From Acidobacteriaceae bacterium (GTDB lineage: Bacteria; Acidobacteriota; Terriglobia; Terriglobales; Acidobacteriaceae), in NCBI GenBank assembly GCA_030039675.1, contig JASHVE010000086.1, positions 1 through 39,504 of the forward strand: a DNA stretch of 39,504 bases, read 5' to 3'. Below are positions 9,103 to 34,632 of the stretch, one piece after another. Under the pieces are notes generated by a model. The model was not told the DNA's origin, made no database searches, and saw only the letters and a program-made list of their open reading frames with translations. The translations under genes were made by a program, and so were the position numbers. How positions within the stretch are numbered: the first letter of the stretch is position 1; each line of letters opens with the position of its first letter.

Positions 9103-10518
<1,416 letters not shown>

Positions 10519-11011: not shown

Positions 11012-11301
11012 AAATATGTTTGCGGGAACCGGAAAAACCCGGGCGCGAGAGGGCTTCCGGCGTCCTGCAAATTCCCGCTACTGCATGGGGCGAGGGGCGA
11101 AAAAGGAACCGCGAGACGTATCCAACAGGTCATCGGGCGATGCACCGAAATGGGTATTGGCAATTTCTATAAATCGTTTATTTAACTTATGTTGAGAACT
11201 ACCGATAGAGGGGTATAAAGCCAGAAAAGCGGGAGTGCCGAAACAGACTGCTGCTCGATGGCGGCGAAGTGAACTATGCGTCTCGAAGGGCTCGTTAAGC
11301 C

Positions 11302-13332: not shown

Positions 13333-14613
13333 GTGGAATTACTGAATCTGGAAAAGTACAAAGCCGAGATACACAGGACGCTGATCTCGAAGCTCGACCT
13401 CGAAAAGCTGTCGCGCGTTAATTCCAGCCAGGCGCGGCAGGCTGTGTCGAGCATCGTGAAGGAGATCATCGCCGATCAGCGCGTGCCGCTGAACTACGAC
13501 GAGCAGGAAAAGATCCAGGCTGACCTGCTCGACGAGGTCTTCGGACTTGGGCCACTGGAGCCGCTGCTGCGCGATCCGAAGATCTCCGACATTCTGGTTA
13601 ACGACAAAGACCATGTCTTCGTGGAAAAAGGCGGACTGCTGCAGAAGGTGAACACCTCTTTCCGCGACGACCGCCATCTGCTGCAGATCATCGACCGCAT
13701 CGTGTCGCGCGTGGGCCGCCGCGTAGACGAGTCCTCGCCGATGGTGGACGCGCGCCTGCCTGACGGATCGCGCGTGAACGCGATCATTCCGCCGCTGGCG
13801 CTGGACGGGCCTTCGCTCTCGATCCGCCGCTTTGGCACCGGACCGCTGGCGGCCAATCAGCTGGTGCAGTTGAAGAGCATTTCGCCGGAGATGATGGAAG
13901 TGCTGTCGGCGGCCGTGAAAGCGCGCATCAGCATCGTGATTGCAGGCGGCACCGGCGCCGGCAAAACGACCTTCCTGAATATTCTGTCGCAATACATTCC
14001 CAACAACGAGCGGCTGGTGACCATTGAGGACGCGGCCGAACTGAGGCTGGCGCAGGAAAACATCGTGCGCCTGGAGACGCGGCCGCCGAATATTGAAGGC
14101 CAGGGCGCGATCCGGCAGCGGCAACTGCTCATCAACTGCCTGCGTATGCGGCCTGACCGCATCATCATGGGCGAGGTCCGCGGCGAAGAAGCGTTCGACA
14201 TGCTGCAGGCGATGAACACGGGCCACGAAGGCTCGATGACCACGATTCACGCCAACACGCCGCGCGACGCCATTGCGCGTCTTGAATCGATGGTGGCGAT
14301 GGGCAACATGAACCTGCCGGAGAAATCGGTGCGGCAGCAGATCGCTTCGGCTATCACGATCGTGGTGCAGGCTACGCGTTTGAGCGACGGCACCCGTAAG
14401 GTCACCAGCGTGGCGGAGATCACGGGCATGGAAGAGAACGTGATCAGCATGCAGGAAATCTTCACGTTCCAGAAGAAAGGTATCGGTCCGGACGGGAGAG
14501 TGATCGGAGTGTTTTCGCCGACACGCATCCGCCCCAAGTTTTTAGAGCGGCTGCGGGTTTCGGGAATCGTGCTGCCGCCAGCGATCTTCGAACGGGAGAC
14601 GCTGGTTAACTAG
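13333..14613 (+). CDS. cpaF: Tad motor ATPase CpaF/TadA
   Basis: This 426-residue hexameric cytoplasmic ATPase powers pilin assembly (VirB11/GspE superfamily). An N-terminal helical segment (1-70) precedes the [14 protein letters not shown] region and the RecA-like domain, with Walker [10 protein letters not shown] at about residues 205-213, a Walker-B region with [15 protein letters not shown], and a His box in the [13 protein letters not shown] stretch. Length is normal. The start is GTG at 13333; the first residues [20 protein letters not shown] fit the family, but the upstream ribosome site is weak and the nearby ATG is out of frame. It follows cpaE by 64 nt and precedes tadB by 16 nt. 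Confidence 0.95.
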
Positions 14614-14629: not shown

Positions 14630-15604
14630 ATGCAGGCCATGCCACTGGTTGTCGTTCTGGTCTTTATCGGCGTGTTCACGATCATTGCGGTGCCCGTCAT
14701 CGCGATCGGATCGACCCGGAAGACCAAGCAGGTTCTGGCGACGCTAGACTCTGCGCTGGCGACCGAAAGCCCCGCGACGCGGGAACAGATCGTCAATATC
14801 CGGAAGGATTCAACACTCAGCAGCATTCCGTGGCTCAACTCGAAGCTGCTGCAATTTCAACTGGCGCCGTATCTGCAGGGACTGCTGAAGCAGGCGAATG
14901 TGAAGTGGAGCGCGGGCCGATTGCTCGCAGTATCGGGCGCCTGTTTCGGAATTCCAATGCTCATCATCTACAACCAGTTCGGAACGATGCTGGGAGGGCT
15001 GGGCGCCGGACTTGCGTTAGCCGCCGCGCCGTTCGGCTGGATCTTTTACATGCGCAACCGGCGCTTCGATCAGTTTCAGCAGGGACTGCCCGAAGCTCTG
15101 GACCTGATGGTGAGCGCACTGCGCGCGGGACACAGCCTGATCGCCGCGATGGGACTGGTGGCGCGGGAGTGCGCTGATCCGGTCGGTATCGAATTCCGGG
15201 CGTGCTTCGACGAGCAGAACTACGGACTCGAACTGAAGGCGGCCCTCGATAATATGCTGCATCGCATGCCTCTCCAGGACCTGAAGATTACGGCCACGGC
15301 GATCATGATCCAGAAGGAGAGCGGCGGCAATCTTGCCGAGGTGCTGGACAAGACGGCCCACGTGATCCGGGAGCGGTTCCGGCTCAAGCGGGAAGTGCAG
15401 GTGCATACGGCGCAGGGCCGGCTCACGGGATGGATCCTGAGCCTGTTGCCGGTGGCGCTGGGCGCGGCGCTGTATTTCGTGAATCCGAGCATGATGAGCG
15501 TTCTCTGGCATCGGGACATCGGCATCAAGCTGATCTGGGCGGCGATTGGCATGACGATCCTGGGCGGACTCGTGATTCGCCACATCGTCAATCTGGATAT
15601 GTAG
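14630..15604 (+). CDS. tadB: Tad inner-membrane platform protein TadB
   Basis: The 324-residue polytopic protein belongs to the GspF/T2SSF superfamily and forms, with TadC, the inner-membrane platform that couples the CpaF motor to pilus growth. It has an N-terminal membrane helix (about 5-26), a central pair (about 95-140), a cytoplasmic T2SSF domain (about 155-285; seen as QFQQGLPEALDLMVSALRAGHSL and QKESGGNLAEVLD) and C-terminal helices. The ATG follows GAGGAGG at ideal spacing. It is 9 nt upstream of tadC. Confidence 0.92.
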   Translation: MQAMPLVVVLVFIGVFTIIAVPVIAIGSTRKTKQVLATLDSALATESPATREQIVNIRKDSTLSSIPWLNSKLLQFQLAPYLQGLLKQANVKWSAGRLLAVSGACFGIPMLIIYNQFGTMLGGLGAGLALAAAPFGWIFYMRNRRFDQFQQGLPEALDLMVSALRAGHSLIAAMGLVARECADPVGIEFRACFDEQNYGLELKAALDNMLHRMPLQDLKITATAIMIQKESGGNLAEVLDKTAHVIRERFRLKREVQVHTAQGRLTGWILSLLPVALGAALYFVNPSMMSVLWHRDIGIKLIWAAIGMTILGGLVIRHIVNLDM

Positions 15605-15613
15605 AGGCGAACC

Positions 15614-16534
15614 ATGACGATTACAATTCTGACTTTCGCGGTGATCTTCCTGCTGTTTGCAAGCGGCGGGCTGTTGCTGTTCTATCGTGAGGCCATGCTG
15701 AAGCGGATCTCGGAAGCGATCGATCCGCAGAACAAGCCGAAGCCGCGCTCGCTGCTGGATACCATCCAGCAGACCGGATCGTCGCTGGGCGGCGTGGTGG
15801 AGCACTTCGAGCACGTTTTGCCGAAGAGCCAGGCTGAGGTCTCGGTGATCTCGCAGCGCCTGATCCGCGCCGGCAACCGGAACGAGTCGGCGGTGAAAGT
15901 CTTCTACGGCATGAAGGTTCTGCTGCCTCTGCTGCTTTGCATTCTGGCACTGGTGACGGGACTCGCGCATGTGATGAGCTCGTTCTTCGTCTATGCGACG
16001 GCACTGGGCTTGGGATTCCTGGCGCCTGATTTCTGGTTGGGAAGGCAGATCAAGAAGCGTCAAAAGGCAATCGAGAAAGGCCTTCCCGATGTGCTCGACC
16101 TGCTGGTGATCTGCATTGAGGCTGGATTGAGTCTGGACCAGGCGACGGCGCGCACGGCCGACGAGCTGCGCACCGCCCAGCCGGAGTTGAGCGACGAGCT
16201 CAACGTCGTGGTGCTGGAGCAGCGCGCGGGCAGGCCGCGCGCCGATGCATGGCGCCATCTGGCCGAACGGACGGGCGTGGAGAGTTTGCGCAACATGGTT
16301 TCGATGCTGGTGCAGTCGGAACAACTCGGCACCAGCATCGCCAAGACGCTGCGTGTGCATGCCGACACGCTTAGAACGCAGCGTGTGCAGGCGATCGAAG
16401 AGATGGCCGCGAAGACCTCGGTCAAGCTGGTTTTCCCCCTGGTATTTTTTATTTTTCCTGCGCTGTTTCTGGTCGTACTCGGTCCGGCAGTGCTTATCAT
16501 GATCGACTCTTTCAAATCGCTTACAGGGCAATAA
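15614..16534 (+). CDS. tadC: Tad inner-membrane platform protein TadC
   Basis: The 306-residue partner of TadB is also in the T2SSF superfamily. Membrane helices are predicted near residues 3-22, 95-135 and 270-300, with the cytoplasmic T2SSF domain (about 155-275) showing KGLPDVLDLLVICIEAGLSL and QSEQLGTSIAKTLRVHAD. The hydrophobic C-terminus (KLVFPLVFFIFPALFLVVLGPAV) is typical of TadC. It is in the same operon as cpaA to tadB, and the first small membrane peptide gene follows after 16 nt. Confidence 0.93.
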   Translation: MTITILTFAVIFLLFASGGLLLFYREAMLKRISEAIDPQNKPKPRSLLDTIQQTGSSLGGVVEHFEHVLPKSQAEVSVISQRLIRAGNRNESAVKVFYGMKVLLPLLLCILALVTGLAHVMSSFFVYATALGLGFLAPDFWLGRQIKKRQKAIEKGLPDVLDLLVICIEAGLSLDQATARTADELRTAQPELSDELNVVVLEQRAGRPRADAWRHLAERTGVESLRNMVSMLVQSEQLGTSIAKTLRVHADTLRTQRVQAIEEMAAKTSVKLVFPLVFFIFPALFLVVLGPAVLIMIDSFKSLTGQ

Positions 16535-16550
16535 GGGAAGGAGGAAACGC

Positions 16551-16646
16551 ATGGATAGTACGACGATCGTCCGGGTTGTTGCGGGCGTGCTGTTTGTCAT
16601 CGTGCTGGTGCTGTTGATTCAGCGCCGCCGCACCCGGGTGAAATAG
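16551..16646 (+). CDS. 31-residue membrane peptide, paralogue 1
   Basis: A short gene between tadC and the DUF192-PilZ gene encodes 31 residues, beginning MDSTTIVRVVAGVLFVIVLV and ending QRRRTRVK. It has a short polar N-terminus, one membrane helix (about residues 6-23) and a strongly basic C-terminal tail, so the tail should face the cytoplasm. AAGGAGG lies 6 nt before the ATG, one of the best ribosome sites in the operon. A second gene with the same length and near-identical ends follows 131 bp later, and this conservation argues for real translation. No known function; a small accessory of the Tad platform is a guess from position. Confidence 0.82.
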   Translation: MDSTTIVRVVAGVLFVIVLVLLIQRRRTRVK

Positions 16647-16729
16647 CCGGACGGTTTGGGGGATTGTGCGGCCCATGCAACAAGGAACACCTCCCGCCGT
16701 GTGACCGGGGACGGGAAGTTTTCGAGCGT

Positions 16730-16745
16730 TGGCCTGGTAATGGCT
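16730..16745 (+). promoter_or_regulatory. Weak sigma-54-like match before peptide paralogue 2
   Basis: TGGCCTGGTAATGGCT matches 9 of 12 informative 24-12 positions with correct GG-N10-GC spacing. It lies 33 bp before the second peptide's ATG. No enhancer module is seen near it, so chance is a real possibility. Confidence 0.28.
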
Positions 16746-16777
16746 GATTGCAAAGTTAATGAGAGGAGAAAGGCTCT

Positions 16778-16873
16778 ATGGAGACAACCACACTAATCCG
16801 GCTTATAGCCGGTGTGTTGTTTGTAGTCGTTTTGGGTCTCTTGGTTCAACGCCGCCGCACGCGGGTGAAGTAG
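16778..16873 (+). CDS. 31-residue membrane peptide, paralogue 2
   Basis: This encodes METTTLIRLIAGVLFVVVLG and then an 11-residue end closing QRRRTRVK, 31 residues in all. It matches paralogue 1 in length, helix position and the eight-residue basic tail, while the DNA has diverged at many third codon positions. That pattern is what selection on the protein would leave. A GAGGAG ribosome site lies about 9 nt upstream. The 131-bp spacer before it is unusually long for this operon and may hold its own promoter. Confidence 0.82.
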   Translation: METTTLIRLIAGVLFVVVLGLLVQRRRTRVK

Positions 16874-17064: not shown

Positions 17065-18114
17065 ATGCACGGGACGCAAGAGGCAAAACGGATTTTCGGC
17101 AGAACGGGGAGTGATGCGGTGGTCGACGTGCCGCTTCCCAGGGGGACTATGGAATCACGGACACATTGCGCCTACAACCAGACCCGGGAGTGTTTTCTGG
17201 GGCTGGAAGTTACGGCCGCCGATCTGTCGTATGCAGGAATCGTGGAGCTGATGTCCACGATGACATTGAGATCGGGCGAGGGCTTGTGGATCGTGCCGTT
17301 CCGCGGTATCCCCACCGCCGGCCTTCCGGCGCCCCTGGATCTCATTTATCTCGACGAGGATTGCCGCATCATCGATCTGGTGGAGTCGTTCCCGACGTTC
17401 CGCATCAGCTCTTCGAGCCCGCGCGCAACCAGCGTGCTGGCCCTGCCGGTGCACTCGATTTATTCGTCGCAGAGCCAGGCCGGCGATCAGCTGGTGCTGT
17501 GCATGGCCGAGGAGATGGAACAGCGGCTGGAGCGGATTGCGAATCTGCGCGGCGAGACGACGACGGTACAGAGCGCGGTGCTGCTCAGAGAAAAGCCGCT
17601 GTGGAGCGGAGGCCCCGGCCTGTTGGAGCTGGAGAACCACTCCCAGCAGGAATTCCTGTTATCGAGGGGCACGCATGAGATGTCGCTGGCGCGGCCGGGC
17701 GAGAACACGTCGAAGCCGCCGCGGCGGTGGCTGGAGCGGTGGTGGTCTCCTGATCCGCGCAAAGCTCCCCGCGATCTGCTGCCTGGCCTCGCGGCCTATT
17801 ACTGGAATGGCGCCGCGCCGGAGCCGCACGGCATTCGCGACATCAGTTCGTCGGGATTGTATGTGGTGACCGAAGAGCGATGGTATCCCGGGACGCTGGT
17901 CCTGATGACGCTGCAGAGAACCGATGTGGGCGAAGAGATCGAAGAACGGTCGATTGCAGTGCAATCGCGCGCGGTGCGCTGGGGCACCGACGGCGTAGGC
18001 CTGAAGTTTGTTTTGCCGGACGCGCAGGACGTGAAGCGCGGCCACAATCTGCTCACGGATGGAGCGGATAGAAAGGCGCTGGAACGCTTTTTGCAGAGGT
18101 TGAAAAAAATGTAA
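17065..18114 (+). CDS. DUF192-PilZ fusion protein of the Tad locus
   Basis: The 349-residue protein joins two domains. Residues about 30-165 resemble DUF192: RSGEGLWIVPFRG and LDLIYLDEDCRIIDLVESFP align with the stand-alone DUF192 protein at 25468-25908, but the conserved HTFFMRFPID core is replaced by PTAGLPAPLD. Residues about 228-330 form a PilZ domain, with RKAPR (R232-R236, the RxxxR motif) and DISSSG (259-264, the D/NxSxxG motif), so c-di-GMP binding is likely. The protein is probably a second-messenger receptor acting on the Tad machine. The ATG at 17065 follows AAGGGA; upstream in-frame starts lack ribosome sites. A GC-rich hairpin lies in the leader (about 16970-17005). It ends 79 nt before tadE. 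Confidence 0.8.
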   Translation: MHGTQEAKRIFGRTGSDAVVDVPLPRGTMESRTHCAYNQTRECFLGLEVTAADLSYAGIVELMSTMTLRSGEGLWIVPFRGIPTAGLPAPLDLIYLDEDCRIIDLVESFPTFRISSSSPRATSVLALPVHSIYSSQSQAGDQLVLCMAEEMEQRLERIANLRGETTTVQSAVLLREKPLWSGGPGLLELENHSQQEFLLSRGTHEMSLARPGENTSKPPRRWLERWWSPDPRKAPRDLLPGLAAYYWNGAAPEPHGIRDISSSGLYVVTEERWYPGTLVLMTLQRTDVGEEIEERSIAVQSRAVRWGTDGVGLKFVLPDAQDVKRGHNLLTDGADRKALERFLQRLKKM

Positions 18115-28834: not shown

Positions 28835-28911
28835 GCAAGGGTAGGCAAAAGCTCGCCAGATGAGATTGTAAGTGCTTCTTTCTTAAGAGACATTGCTTCA
28901 GAGACCCTGAA

Positions 28912-28927
28912 TGGCATGCCAGGTGCA
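28912..28927 (+). promoter_or_regulatory. Sigma-54 (24-12) promoter of flp1
   Basis: TGGCATGCCAGGTGCA matches 10 of 12 informative positions of TGGCACG-N4-TTGCW, with GG (28913-28914) and GC (28925-28926) 10 bp apart. Transcription would start near 28938, 43 nt before the flp1 ATG. The enhancer module lies at the right distance upstream. Confidence 0.7.
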
Positions 28928-28980
28928 TAGTAGGGGGTGCCCCGGCTGAGGCTGGGAATCAACTACTTGGAGAGATCGAG

Positions 28981-29166
28981 ATGAACAACCTTTTTCTGAA
29001 GATGTATGTTAAGGTCCAGGATTTCCTGAGCCGCGAGGAAGGCCAGGATCTGGTTGAGTACGCCCTGCTGATTACCCTGGTCGCACTGGCTGCCGTTTCC
29101 GGCATCAACAAGGTAGCCTCCGCAATCAACACCGTCTTCACCAACATTAGCAACACGCTTTCGTAA
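28981..29166 (+). CDS. flp: Flp-type pilin, copy 1
   Basis: The 61-residue prepilin is the probable major subunit of the Tad pilus. The leader ends at G21, followed by QDLVEYALL with Glu at +5 and Tyr at +6, the canonical Flp processing site for CpaA. The mature part is 40 residues: a hydrophobic helix (ITLVALAAVSGINKVASAI) and a polar tail ending SNTLS. GGAGAGA lies about 6 nt before the ATG. It is 3.5 kb from cpaC and 17 kb from cpaA, under its own predicted sigma-54 promoter. A hairpin 52 nt after the stop may stabilise or end the transcript. Confidence 0.94.
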   Translation: MNNLFLKMYVKVQDFLSREEGQDLVEYALLITLVALAAVSGINKVASAINTVFTNISNTLS

Positions 29167-29260: not shown

Positions 29261-29404
29261 TGCAAGGTTGTTATTCAGTTATCGGGCGGGGAGGTCAATC
29301 CCAACAGGTTTTGAATTGGGAGTTTGAACGCATCCAGGCTCGAGTATTAGAACTGAAAGCGCACGCATAGGATAGAAGCCAGGCTGGATATGGAGAAGCT
29401 TGAC

Positions 29405-29590
29405 ATGCACGATCAGTTCTTAAAACTACAACTCAAGTTCTGGGAATTGATATACGACGAGAATGGCCAGGACTTAGTGGAATACGGTTTGATCGTGACA
29501 GCGATTGCGCTGGCGGCAATTGGCGGCATACAGCATTTTGCTTCAGCGGTCGCAACGCTCTTCAATAACATTGATAATTCCCTTTCGTAA
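29405..29590 (+). CDS. flp2: Flp-type pilin, copy 2
   Basis: This second Flp prepilin has 61 residues when started at the ATG at 29405. That start has GGAGAAG 7 nt upstream and places the processing site at G21-Q22, exactly as in copy 1; an ATG five codons earlier lacks such support. QDLVEYGLIV keeps Glu at +5 and Tyr at +6, and the tail NNIDNSLS parallels that of copy 1. The leader (KLQLKFWELIYDENG) and mature helix have diverged, so the two pilins may be used in different amounts or conditions. The 238-bp gap after copy 1 shows no convincing 24-12 promoter or enhancer module. Confidence 0.9.
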   Translation: MHDQFLKLQLKFWELIYDENGQDLVEYGLIVTAIALAAIGGIQHFASAVATLFNNIDNSLS

Positions 29591-29820: not shown

Positions 29821-31572
29821 ATGCTGCCGCCTTCTCCATCTGAGAGCACCGGCTCGCTGCTGATTGTTGAATGCGGCTTAACGGCGATCGCCACAGCATG
29901 CTCGTTTGCATGGCCAACGCTCGGCGCCAGATGGTTTGCGCGGATCGAGCGGCCGTTTGGGCGGCTGGCGCAGCGGAAAAAGGTTTCTATTTTTGTGGTG
30001 GGTCTGAGCGTCCTGGTTCTGCGCCTGGCACTTCTCCCTCTTTACCCGATCCCGATTCCGTTTGTTACAGATGATTTCAGCTTCCTGCTGGCTGGCGAGA
30101 CCTTCGCGCTGGGCCGGCTGACGAATCCCACGCCCGCGATGTGGACGCACTTTGAGAGCATCCACATCACAATGAAGCCGACCTACATGTCGATGTACTT
30201 CCCCGGGCAGGGGCTGATTCTGGCGGCGGGCCAGGTGTTGCTGGGCAATCCATGGTACGGGGTTCTGATCGTCAGCGCGCTGATGTGCGCCGCGCTCTGC
30301 TGGATGCTGCAGGCATGGCTGCCTCCGAAGTGGGCCCTGTTGGGCGGGTTGATGGCAGTGCTGCGGCTGGGCGTGTTCAGTTGCTGGACCAATACCTATC
30401 ACGCAGCCGGCTCGCTTGCAGCGCTGGGTGGCGCGCTGGTGCTTGGCGCATTACCGCGTCTTAAGAAGACGGCGCGGATGCGCTATGGCGTCCTGCTGGC
30501 GCTGGGCGCTGCCATTCTGGCTCTCACACGCGCCTACGAAGGGCTTTTGCTGTGCCTGCCGGCTGCCGTGGAGCTGGGACGCTGGCTGCTGCGTGGAAAA
30601 AACCTGCCGAGTACCGCGGTACTGGCGCGGCGCGCCGTTCTGCCGCTGGCCATCCTGATCACGGCAGGATCGTGGCTGGCGCTTTATGATTACCGGGCGT
30701 TTGGAAGTCCGACGACGCTGCCCTACACGGTGGACCGGAATACCTATGCCGTTACGCCGTATTTTGTCTGGCAGCATCAGCGGCCCACTCCCGCATACCG
30801 GCACGCGGTGATGCGGCAGTTCTACATGGATACGGAGTACGCGTTTTTCAAACAACTCCACAGCTGGAAAGGATTTATTCCACAGACGCTGATCAAGATC
30901 CAGTTTTCCGCGCAGTTTTATATCAGTTTTTCTCTGCTGCTACCGCTGATCATGCTGCGGCGAGCCTTTCTTGACCGGCGCATCCGCTTTTTGACGATCA
31001 CGATCGTGGTCATGGTGGCGGGACTGCTGATCGAGATCTATCTGCTGCCTCACTATGTGGCGCCTTTCACGGCGGCGTTTTATGCGATTGGTCTGCAGGC
31101 GATGCGGCATCTGAGGGTATGGAAGCCGGAGGGGAAGCCGGTGGGGCTCGAGTTGACACGAATGACCATTGCTGTGTGCGTTGTCCTGGCCGGAGTGCGT
31201 GTCTTTGCGCGGCCGCTGCACATCGCTCCGCCGGAGTTGCCGGTGAATAACTGGAACTGCACCTGGTTCGGTCCGGAGCACTACGGTGTGGAGCGGGCGC
31301 AGATCGAGTCGGAGCTGGAGAAGATGCCCGGCCAGCAATTGGCTATTGTGCGCTATGGCAAGGGTCATAACACCCTGAACGAGTGGGTCTATAACCAGCC
31401 GGATATCGATGGTTCCAAAGTCGTATGGGCTCGAGAGATGGATCCGGTGGATAATATGGAACTAATCCATTACTACGCCCACAGGAAGGTGTGGCTGGTT
31501 GAGCCGGATACGATTCCGGCCAGGGTGTCGCCCTATCCGGTACCGGGGATGACAAACGGAGCCATGCGCTAA
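29821..31572 (+). CDS. GT-C fold membrane glycosyltransferase, paralogue 1
   Basis: The 583-residue polytopic protein has about ten membrane segments and a soluble C-terminal region of about 110 residues. The first large loop holds VTDDFSFLLAGETFALGRLTNP, whose paired Asp is typical of GT-C enzymes (PMT/ArnT-like, GT39-like) that use lipid-linked sugars. The loop also has MWTHFESIHITM and the MYFPGQG segment. The C-terminal region contains FGPEHYGVERAQIE and DGSKVVWAREMDP. A paralogue of identical length lies at 32881-34632, beyond a PAP2-like gene. No clear ribosome site precedes the ATG. Sugar and acceptor are unknown; a cell-envelope glycolipid or pilin is possible. Confidence 0.75.
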   Translation: MLPPSPSESTGSLLIVECGLTAIATACSFAWPTLGARWFARIERPFGRLAQRKKVSIFVVGLSVLVLRLALLPLYPIPIPFVTDDFSFLLAGETFALGRLTNPTPAMWTHFESIHITMKPTYMSMYFPGQGLILAAGQVLLGNPWYGVLIVSALMCAALCWMLQAWLPPKWALLGGLMAVLRLGVFSCWTNTYHAAGSLAALGGALVLGALPRLKKTARMRYGVLLALGAAILALTRAYEGLLLCLPAAVELGRWLLRGKNLPSTAVLARRAVLPLAILITAGSWLALYDYRAFGSPTTLPYTVDRNTYAVTPYFVWQHQRPTPAYRHAVMRQFYMDTEYAFFKQLHSWKGFIPQTLIKIQFSAQFYISFSLLLPLIMLRRAFLDRRIRFLTITIVVMVAGLLIEIYLLPHYVAPFTAAFYAIGLQAMRHLRVWKPEGKPVGLELTRMTIAVCVVLAGVRVFARPLHIAPPELPVNNWNCTWFGPEHYGVERAQIESELEKMPGQQLAIVRYGKGHNTLNEWVYNQPDIDGSKVVWAREMDPVDNMELIHYYAHRKVWLVEPDTIPARVSPYPVPGMTNGAMR

Positions 31573-32880: not shown

Positions 32881-34632
32881 ATGTTACTGCCTTCCGCTAC
32901 GGGATCAAATCAGACATTACAGATTCTTGAGCTCGGCCTTACCACGATCACGATTACCGCCGCATTCGCGTGGCCCGAGCTTGGCGCGAACGTGTTCCGG
33001 CGCGTCGAGGGTGCTCTCGGCGCGTTGGCGCGCAGAAAAAGGCTTGCGGCTGCCTCGGTTGGTTTGTGCGTGCTGGCGTTTCGGCTGGCCATCCTTCCTC
33101 TTTACCCGGTACCTCTTCCTTTTGTTCCCGACGACTTCAGTTTCCTGCTCGCGGCGGACACCTTCGTCCATGGCCGGCTGGCAAATCCGACGCCTGTGAT
33201 GTGGACGCATTTCGAAAGCATCCATATCACGATGCAGCCTACGTATACGTCCATGTACTTCCCGGGACAAGGCCTGCTGCTTGCGGCGAGCAAGCTGTTG
33301 CTGGGCAACCCGTGGTATGGTGTATTGCTTGCCAGCGCACTGATGTGCGCGGCGATCTGCTGGGCGCTGCAAGCGTGGCTGCCGCCGGGCTGGGCGCTGC
33401 TCGGCGGCAGCATTGCAGTCCTGCGTCTGGGGATTTTCAGCTGTTGGACGAATACGTACCACACGGCAGGATCTCTAAGCGCCTTGGGTGGAGCGCTGAT
33501 ACTGGGCGCACTTCCGCGACTGATGAGGACAGGCCGCTTTCGCTACGGCCTGCTCATGGGAATTGGAATCAGCATTCTGATTTTGACCCGGCCTTCCGAA
33601 GGGCTTCTGCTTTGTATTCCGGTCGCATTTGTACTGGGCCGATGGCTGATCAAAGGAAAGAACAGGCCAGCGGCGGGTTCTCTGGCGCGGCGCGCGGCTT
33701 TGCCGCTGGCCATAGTGGCCTGCACCATAGGCTGGCTTGGGTATTACGATTACCGGGCGTTTGGCTGTGCCACCACGCCGCCATACACCATCGATCGGAA
33801 TACCTATGCGGTTACGCCTTATTATGTTTGGCAGCCGCCGCGGCCGGTTCCGCATTACAGGCACCAGGTGATGCAGCATTTTTATACATATACGGAGTAC
33901 GAGTTTTACTCGAAAATCCGCACCTTTCCCGGGTTTCTATCTCAAACCCTGCTGAAATTTGTGATCGCGGTCCTGTTTTTTTCCTGTTGCCCGCTATTGT
34001 TTCCGCTCATTATGCTGCGCCGGGTCTTGATGGACCGCCGCATTCGCTTTCTTGTCATTTGCGGATTAGCTTCGTTTGTTGGGTTGATTGTCGAGATCTA
34101 CCTTGAGCCGTATTACATTGCCCCATTTACGGTGGCCTACTATGCTATCGGGTTGCAGGCCATGCGGCACCTTCGGGTTTGGAAACCCGAGGACAGGCCT
34201 GTTGGGCGAGGGATACTGCGTCTAACCGTCGTCCTCTGTATTGTGCTGGCAGGTCTGCGCCTGTTCGCGCAGCAACTCGATCTATCCGTTGCGGAGTGGC
34301 CGCCCAACAACTGGAATCTTACCTGGTATGGTCCTGAACATTACGGGGTGGAACGAGCTCAGATCGAATCCAGGCTGGAACAGCTCCCGGGCCCGCAGTT
34401 GGCCATTGTCCGCTATGGACCCAAGCACGAAAGCCTCGATGAGTGGGTTTACAATGGCGCGGACATCGATGGCTCCAAAGTCGTATGGGCAAGAGAGATG
34501 GATCCGGTAGATAATGAAGAGCTAATCCACCACTACGCCAACCGGAAGGTGTGGCTGGTTGAGCCGGACGCGATCCCGGCGAAGGTTTCGCCTTATCCAA
34601 CGCCTGACACGGCGGAAGTTGCGGCGCATTAA
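32881..34632 (+). CDS. GT-C fold membrane glycosyltransferase, paralogue 2
   Basis: A 583-residue protein, the same length as and clearly homologous to the product of 29821-31572 from end to end. The VPDDFSFLLAADTF loop, MWTHFESIHITM, MYFPGQG, FSCWTNTYH and the C-terminal DGSKVVWAREMDPVDN are shared nearly unchanged, while the N-terminal 60 residues and the membrane segment around residues 365-390 differ most. The pair arose by duplication and probably has diverged in donor or acceptor choice. A weak GAGAAG precedes the ATG. It is followed 51 bp later by the GT2 gene on the same strand. Confidence 0.75.
   Translation: MLLPSATGSNQTLQILELGLTTITITAAFAWPELGANVFRRVEGALGALARRKRLAAASVGLCVLAFRLAILPLYPVPLPFVPDDFSFLLAADTFVHGRLANPTPVMWTHFESIHITMQPTYTSMYFPGQGLLLAASKLLLGNPWYGVLLASALMCAAICWALQAWLPPGWALLGGSIAVLRLGIFSCWTNTYHTAGSLSALGGALILGALPRLMRTGRFRYGLLMGIGISILILTRPSEGLLLCIPVAFVLGRWLIKGKNRPAAGSLARRAALPLAIVACTIGWLGYYDYRAFGCATTPPYTIDRNTYAVTPYYVWQPPRPVPHYRHQVMQHFYTYTEYEFYSKIRTFPGFLSQTLLKFVIAVLFFSCCPLLFPLIMLRRVLMDRRIRFLVICGLASFVGLIVEIYLEPYYIAPFTVAYYAIGLQAMRHLRVWKPEDRPVGRGILRLTVVLCIVLAGLRLFAQQLDLSVAEWPPNNWNLTWYGPEHYGVERAQIESRLEQLPGPQLAIVRYGPKHESLDEWVYNGADIDGSKVVWAREMDPVDNEELIHHYANRKVWLVEPDAIPAKVSPYPTPDTAEVAAH

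Follow-up and report, generated by a model that had tools for sequence, protein, structure and literature searches.

A conserved single-helix micro-protein encoded behind tadC in Acidobacteriota is a candidate accessory subunit of the Tad platform

TadB and TadC are believed to make up a platform, and together with the ATPase they have been modelled as a 6:3:3 assembly (PMC11300603). In the case of the related protein PulF, evidence supports a trimer around a central channel, and for TadB and TadC a trimer of heterodimers has been suggested (PMC10790770). In all type IV filament systems, how the motion of the ATPase is passed on to the pilins via the platform proteins has yet to be settled (PMC11300603, PMC10790770). 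In the tad operon of an Acidobacteriaceae bacterium, two very small genes follow directly on tadC. This locus raises the question of whether the two are real genes, whether they belong to the Tad machine and what their products might do there.

The stretch analysed here, called the window, comprises 39,504 nucleotides. Its Tad locus starts with a prepilin peptidase gene (position 11276) and a tadZ-like gene (11985), followed on the + strand by tadA (13333..14613, T2SSE ATPase, Pfam PF00437, E 6e-59) and the two T2SSF platform genes tadB (14630..15604, PF00482, E 4e-19) and tadC (15614..16534, PF00482, E 2e-19). The two peptide genes are part of this cluster. Behind them lies a DUF192-like gene with a C-terminal PilZ domain (17065..18114, +), in whose product PilZ passes the cut-off with E 1e-4 and DUF192 falls below it with E 1e-3. 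Genes for TadE (18194), a TadG-like protein (18747), CpaB (22990) and the secretin (23832) complete the locus, and a prepilin motif scan of the window found only two ordinary Flp pilins, at 28864-29163 and 29357-29587. Downstream of the Flp pilins, a tandem pair of very similar 583-residue multi-pass membrane proteins is encoded at 29821-31572 and 32881-34632.

The first peptide gene, pepA (16551..16646, +), encodes the 31-residue peptide MDSTTIVRVVAGVLFVIVLVLLIQRRRTRVK, and its paralogue pepB (16778..16873, +) encodes the 31-residue peptide METTTLIRLIAGVLFVVVLGLLVQRRRTRVK. Both open reading frames are found exactly where the initial annotation had placed them, each with a Shine-Dalgarno sequence, a single membrane helix and the identical tail QRRRTRVK. 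The stop codon of tadC occupies 16532-16534; directly 3' of it stands the Shine-Dalgarno sequence of pepA, AAGGAGG (16538..16544, +), 6 nt 5' of the ATG. That of pepB, AGGAG (16764..16768, +), precedes its ATG by 9 nt. The two genes are separated by a spacer of 131 nt (16647..16777, +), the sequence of which is not conserved. In a pairwise comparison the peptides are 71% identical, and among the 185 ATG-started frames of 20-60 residues in the window no other pair comes near them in similarity (score 118, against 62 for the next pair). An AF2 model of the pepA product shows one continuous helix over residues 3-30 with a mean pLDDT of 92. Sequence and model together describe a small hydrophobic membrane peptide with a basic end.

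The initial annotation had taken the divergence of the two genes at third codon positions, with the protein kept, as a sign of real translation. This observation was borne out: the DNA of pepA and pepB differs at 15 third positions and at 10 first and second positions, with a pN/pS of 0.26. The same pattern was seen in a family set of 160 distinct coding sequences, corresponding to 149 distinct peptides, that was pooled from all loci. Here the pooled value of pN/pS is 0.40 at an almost saturated pS, and the entropies at codon positions 1, 2 and 3 are 0.88, 0.54 and 1.55 bits. Frame 0 has no stops, whereas the two shifted frames have stops in 115 of 123 and 35 of 123 sequences. A Shine-Dalgarno match of at least 4 nt at the proper distance precedes 96% of the 160 coding sequences, compared with 48% of shuffled leaders. 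When the window was compared with three close relatives, the peptide genes were 72-85% identical and the spacer 34-50%. Since third positions vary, the other frames are broken, the pN/pS is low and conserved genes surround an unconserved spacer, the peptide genes show the pattern of protein-level selection, and by this evidence the gene family is real. Conservation and ribosome sites together strongly support translation. Chance reading frames are ruled out by the conservation across the 160 coding sequences. A structured RNA was also considered and rejected: Rfam gave no match in the region, and the fold z-scores are +0.7 for the spacer, which is not significant, and -1.2 for the region after pepB.

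The peptide was then compared with known families. No model of Pfam, NCBIfam or PHROGs scored above its cut-off, including those for CydX, KdpF and CcmD in Pfam and NCBIfam, and no PDB chain matched. Of 25 members compared with the CcmD model of Pfam, a single one reached E 0.07, and weak matches to the LPXTG anchor, DUF543 and PsbH look like an effect of hydrophobic composition. In the open literature we found no description of the peptide. It is a new family of a known type of part, the operon-encoded single-helix accessory proteins, and we found no such part described for Tad. Tad inventories that are built on existing family models would miss it, and conserved genes in the tad operons of this phylum, which is dominant in soil, lie outside the current family libraries.

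The link to the Tad machine was studied in the genomes of the same family, Acidobacteriaceae. The peptide was detected in 90 of 300 genomes, and TadC is present in 89 of these 90 (Fisher 4e-22). In the lone peptide genome without TadC (G299), the peptides lie right where a contig begins. All 50 TadC proteins closest to that of the window have the peptide encoded on their own strand, 17-319 bp downstream. tadC is also the most constant neighbour overall, lying within 400 bp of the peptide in 103 of the 109 distinct loci whose upstream sequence is long enough. One copy is present in 72 loci, two in 32 and three in 8. On a tree of TadC, 7 changes suffice to explain where the peptide is present, compared with 35 when the labels are shuffled. 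It is carried by an entire clade of 99 rows and by none of the 20 rows of the sister clade; the two rows of the large clade that are printed 'none' are re-fetched, unrescanned loci of the genomes G034 and G182, for which the family-wide genome search does find the peptide. The connection to Tad that the initial annotation had drawn from gene position therefore has strong support from neighbourhood, co-occurrence and the TadC tree. No copy was detectable in 97 of the 186 TadC-bearing genomes of the family, so the peptide is not essential to Tad in general.

A profile search over the phylum detected the peptide in further families of the class and elsewhere in Acidobacteriota, again after tadC (families f2, f3, f11, f29, f38, f44, f47, f51 and f60). 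Carriers with a name include Terracidiphilus and Granulicella MAGs and Occallatibacter savannae; among cultured relatives the gene is present in O. savannae AB23 (L145) and in Acidobacteriaceae bacterium KBS 96 (L152). Conservation thus extends to many genomes beyond the one in which the peptides were noticed. The sequence motif proposed at that time came close but was incomplete: either R or Q occupies position 8, and the tails of relatives diverge from QRRRTRVK to RRKKKSA, RMKKKAPR and others. At two loci (L084, L087) tadC is the last tad gene and the peptide still stands behind it; at another (L081), where the contig ends, a tadA-like gene lies close to it. Three matches of the phylum search (L096-L098) look spurious. 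The peptide was not found in a plasmid collection, and in a small sample of six proteobacterial plasmid tad loci there was neither an annotated micro-gene after tadC nor, within 400 bp of it, a hydrophobic mini-ORF preceded by a ribosome site.

Since the 31-residue peptide genes after tadC have been kept by evolution, the Tad machine of Acidobacteriota probably has a tiny extra part that has gone undescribed. What this part does can be approached by comparison with CydX, a single-helix protein that is encoded after cydB and tied to a CydA subtype, and that is replaced elsewhere by CydY or CydZ (PMC4325964). In both cases a micro-protein gene directly follows that of the last large membrane subunit and is coupled to the sequence type of one large subunit, orphans are rare, and different mini-ORFs occupy the same spot in other clades. 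The host complex differs, we claim no sequence relationship, and the Tad peptide has tandem copies and a polybasic tail. CcmD, KdpF and AcrZ are likewise single-helix accessory proteins of larger membrane complexes, but the Tad peptide has no significant match to their families. From the CydX parallel, and from the platform that TadB and TadC are thought to form, we propose with moderate confidence that the peptide is a small, CydX-like accessory subunit of the TadB/TadC inner-membrane platform in the Acidobacteriota Tad (type IVc) machine.

From gene order and co-inheritance we infer a partnership with TadB and TadC. The initial annotation had suggested that the peptides stabilise or regulate these two proteins or the secretion complex; the tie to Tad in this suggestion stands, and the role itself is read from the same gene order and co-inheritance. 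Orientation, contact with TadB/TadC and effect on assembly we infer as follows. By the positive-inside rule, a basic tail is expected in the cytoplasm and an acidic N-terminus outside. The peptide would probably cross the membrane with one helix, its short acidic N-terminus in the periplasm and its polybasic C-terminus in the cytoplasm. CcmD has an N-out/C-in topology (PMC10903887). The helix would most likely pack against membrane helices of TadB/TadC and stabilise the platform or tune how it is coupled to TadA, the ATPase, in a way similar to CydX in cytochrome bd. Present in one to three copies in tandem, the genes would set the dosage or supply slightly different subunits. An additional conserved helix that goes with a single platform lineage offers a new and genetically simple handle on how ATPase motion reaches the pilins.

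With some placements, a partner other than TadC is conceivable. In two sister genomes (L040 and L092) the peptide is encoded about 1.5 kb from tadC, directly after a Flp pilin gene and before DUF192. Genome G217, a single contig, has three copies, of which one follows tadC and two lie elsewhere. One of the latter (L032) is in a partial second tad cluster with an NtrC-like regulator, TadZ, the peptide and PilZ, lacking tadA, tadB and tadC. The other (L033, 3897-3989) is an intact orphan copy, MDQTTIIRIVAGVLVIVILIVLIQRRRTRTK, which begins 20 bp behind an FtsK-like gene; the surrounding several kb contain no tad genes. A relative of the NtrC-like regulator is encoded in the window at 9103-10518 (-), divergent from the tad operon.

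One such partner could be the DUF192-PilZ protein, or else TadZ or TadA. The peptide would then serve as a membrane dock, and its polybasic tail would recruit the cytoplasmic protein to the pilus base, possibly under c-di-GMP control. A DUF192/PilZ gene follows the peptide within 700 bp in 100 of 107 loci, the order tadZ-peptide-PilZ is kept at L032 where tadABC are missing, and at L040 and L092 the peptide has remained near DUF192 though away from tadC. However, three loci of other families (L084, L087 and L088) keep the pair of tadC and peptide with no DUF192/PilZ gene behind it, and in the majority of tad operons without the peptide, DUF192/PilZ is nevertheless found behind tadC. We consider this dock unlikely. 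As a separate observation, DUF192 genes are commonly found 3' of tadC across Acidobacteriota, and the window copy is one that is joined to PilZ.

The pilins themselves are another possible partner. As a membrane chaperone or minor component, the peptide might hold Flp or TadE pilins near the platform before assembly; it belongs to a pilus operon, stands directly after a Flp pilin gene at L040 and L092, and its several copies would suit a stoichiometric partner. It shares with the Flp (type IVb) pilins a small size, a single hydrophobic helix and the Tad locus, but is no pilin itself: its basic end is C-terminal, and the 31-residue peptides have neither a prepilin leader nor a G-x3/4-E-Y cleavage site. 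The two ordinary Flp pilins of the window are encoded elsewhere, 12 kb away from the peptide, and such a handling role appears improbable to us.

A small toxin of type I, like TisB, ZorO or Ibs, arranged in tandem and restrained by an antisense RNA, would resemble the peptide in its length of about 30 residues, the hydrophobic helix, the basic cytoplasmic end and the tandem copies (PMC8309996). In contrast, the Tad peptide is fixed in its operon over the whole phylum and co-inherited with TadC. A conserved antisense or leader region was not seen in the spacer, whose sequence varies; Rfam gave no match, and no promoter-like site was found on either strand when scored against the sigma-70 consensus only. 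We consider a toxin very unlikely. That pepA and pepB are leader ORFs, whose translation merely controls the downstream genes while the peptide is inert, would fit their small size and their position between tadC and the next gene, but is hardly credible, as it is the amino acid sequence and not the DNA that is conserved and some loci have no tad gene downstream.

Returning to the accessory subunit of the TadB/TadC platform, the site behind tadC is also used by other small genes. In five genomes of the peptide-free clade, a different single-helix mini-ORF of 24-27 residues and of the LGLVxYNR type follows the tadC stop codon or overlaps it, for example MTPGVVAVLVVLLLLGLVAYNRQKDRV (loci L052, L053, L060 and L190-L194). 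An hhalign comparison of the main peptide with this replacement gave a probability of 45%. Tentatively, one may extend the proposal to a dedicated platform micro-subunit in one to three variants, with the site after tadC filled repeatedly by unrelated mini-proteins and a small helix being a general need of the split (TadB plus TadC) platforms in this phylum. Such a helix could also account for the sealing or tuning of the platform in the model of a TadB/TadC heterodimer trimer with its central channel.

Contacts between the peptides were considered from covariation. In several lineages, an acidic residue (D/E) at position 2 is accompanied by R8, and N at this position by Q8 (Fisher 2e-13). All independent changes run the same way, but they amount to 2-4 pairs and are not significant; since the independent events are so few, the covariation is at most a hint of self-association, that is, of helix-helix pairing between peptides. 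Position 8 compared with the columns of TadB and TadC gave weak uncorrected signals (best p 1e-4 over many tests) and nothing usable. Longer members of the family exist as well, such as MPLALWLTQATPESGSDSTTIIRVAAGVLALLCVVAILVRRKRKASKQDWS (L085). Versions of about 51 residues at L083, L085, L086 and L087 have a hydrophobic N-terminal extension and share the conserved ending S-K-x-D-W-S/N.
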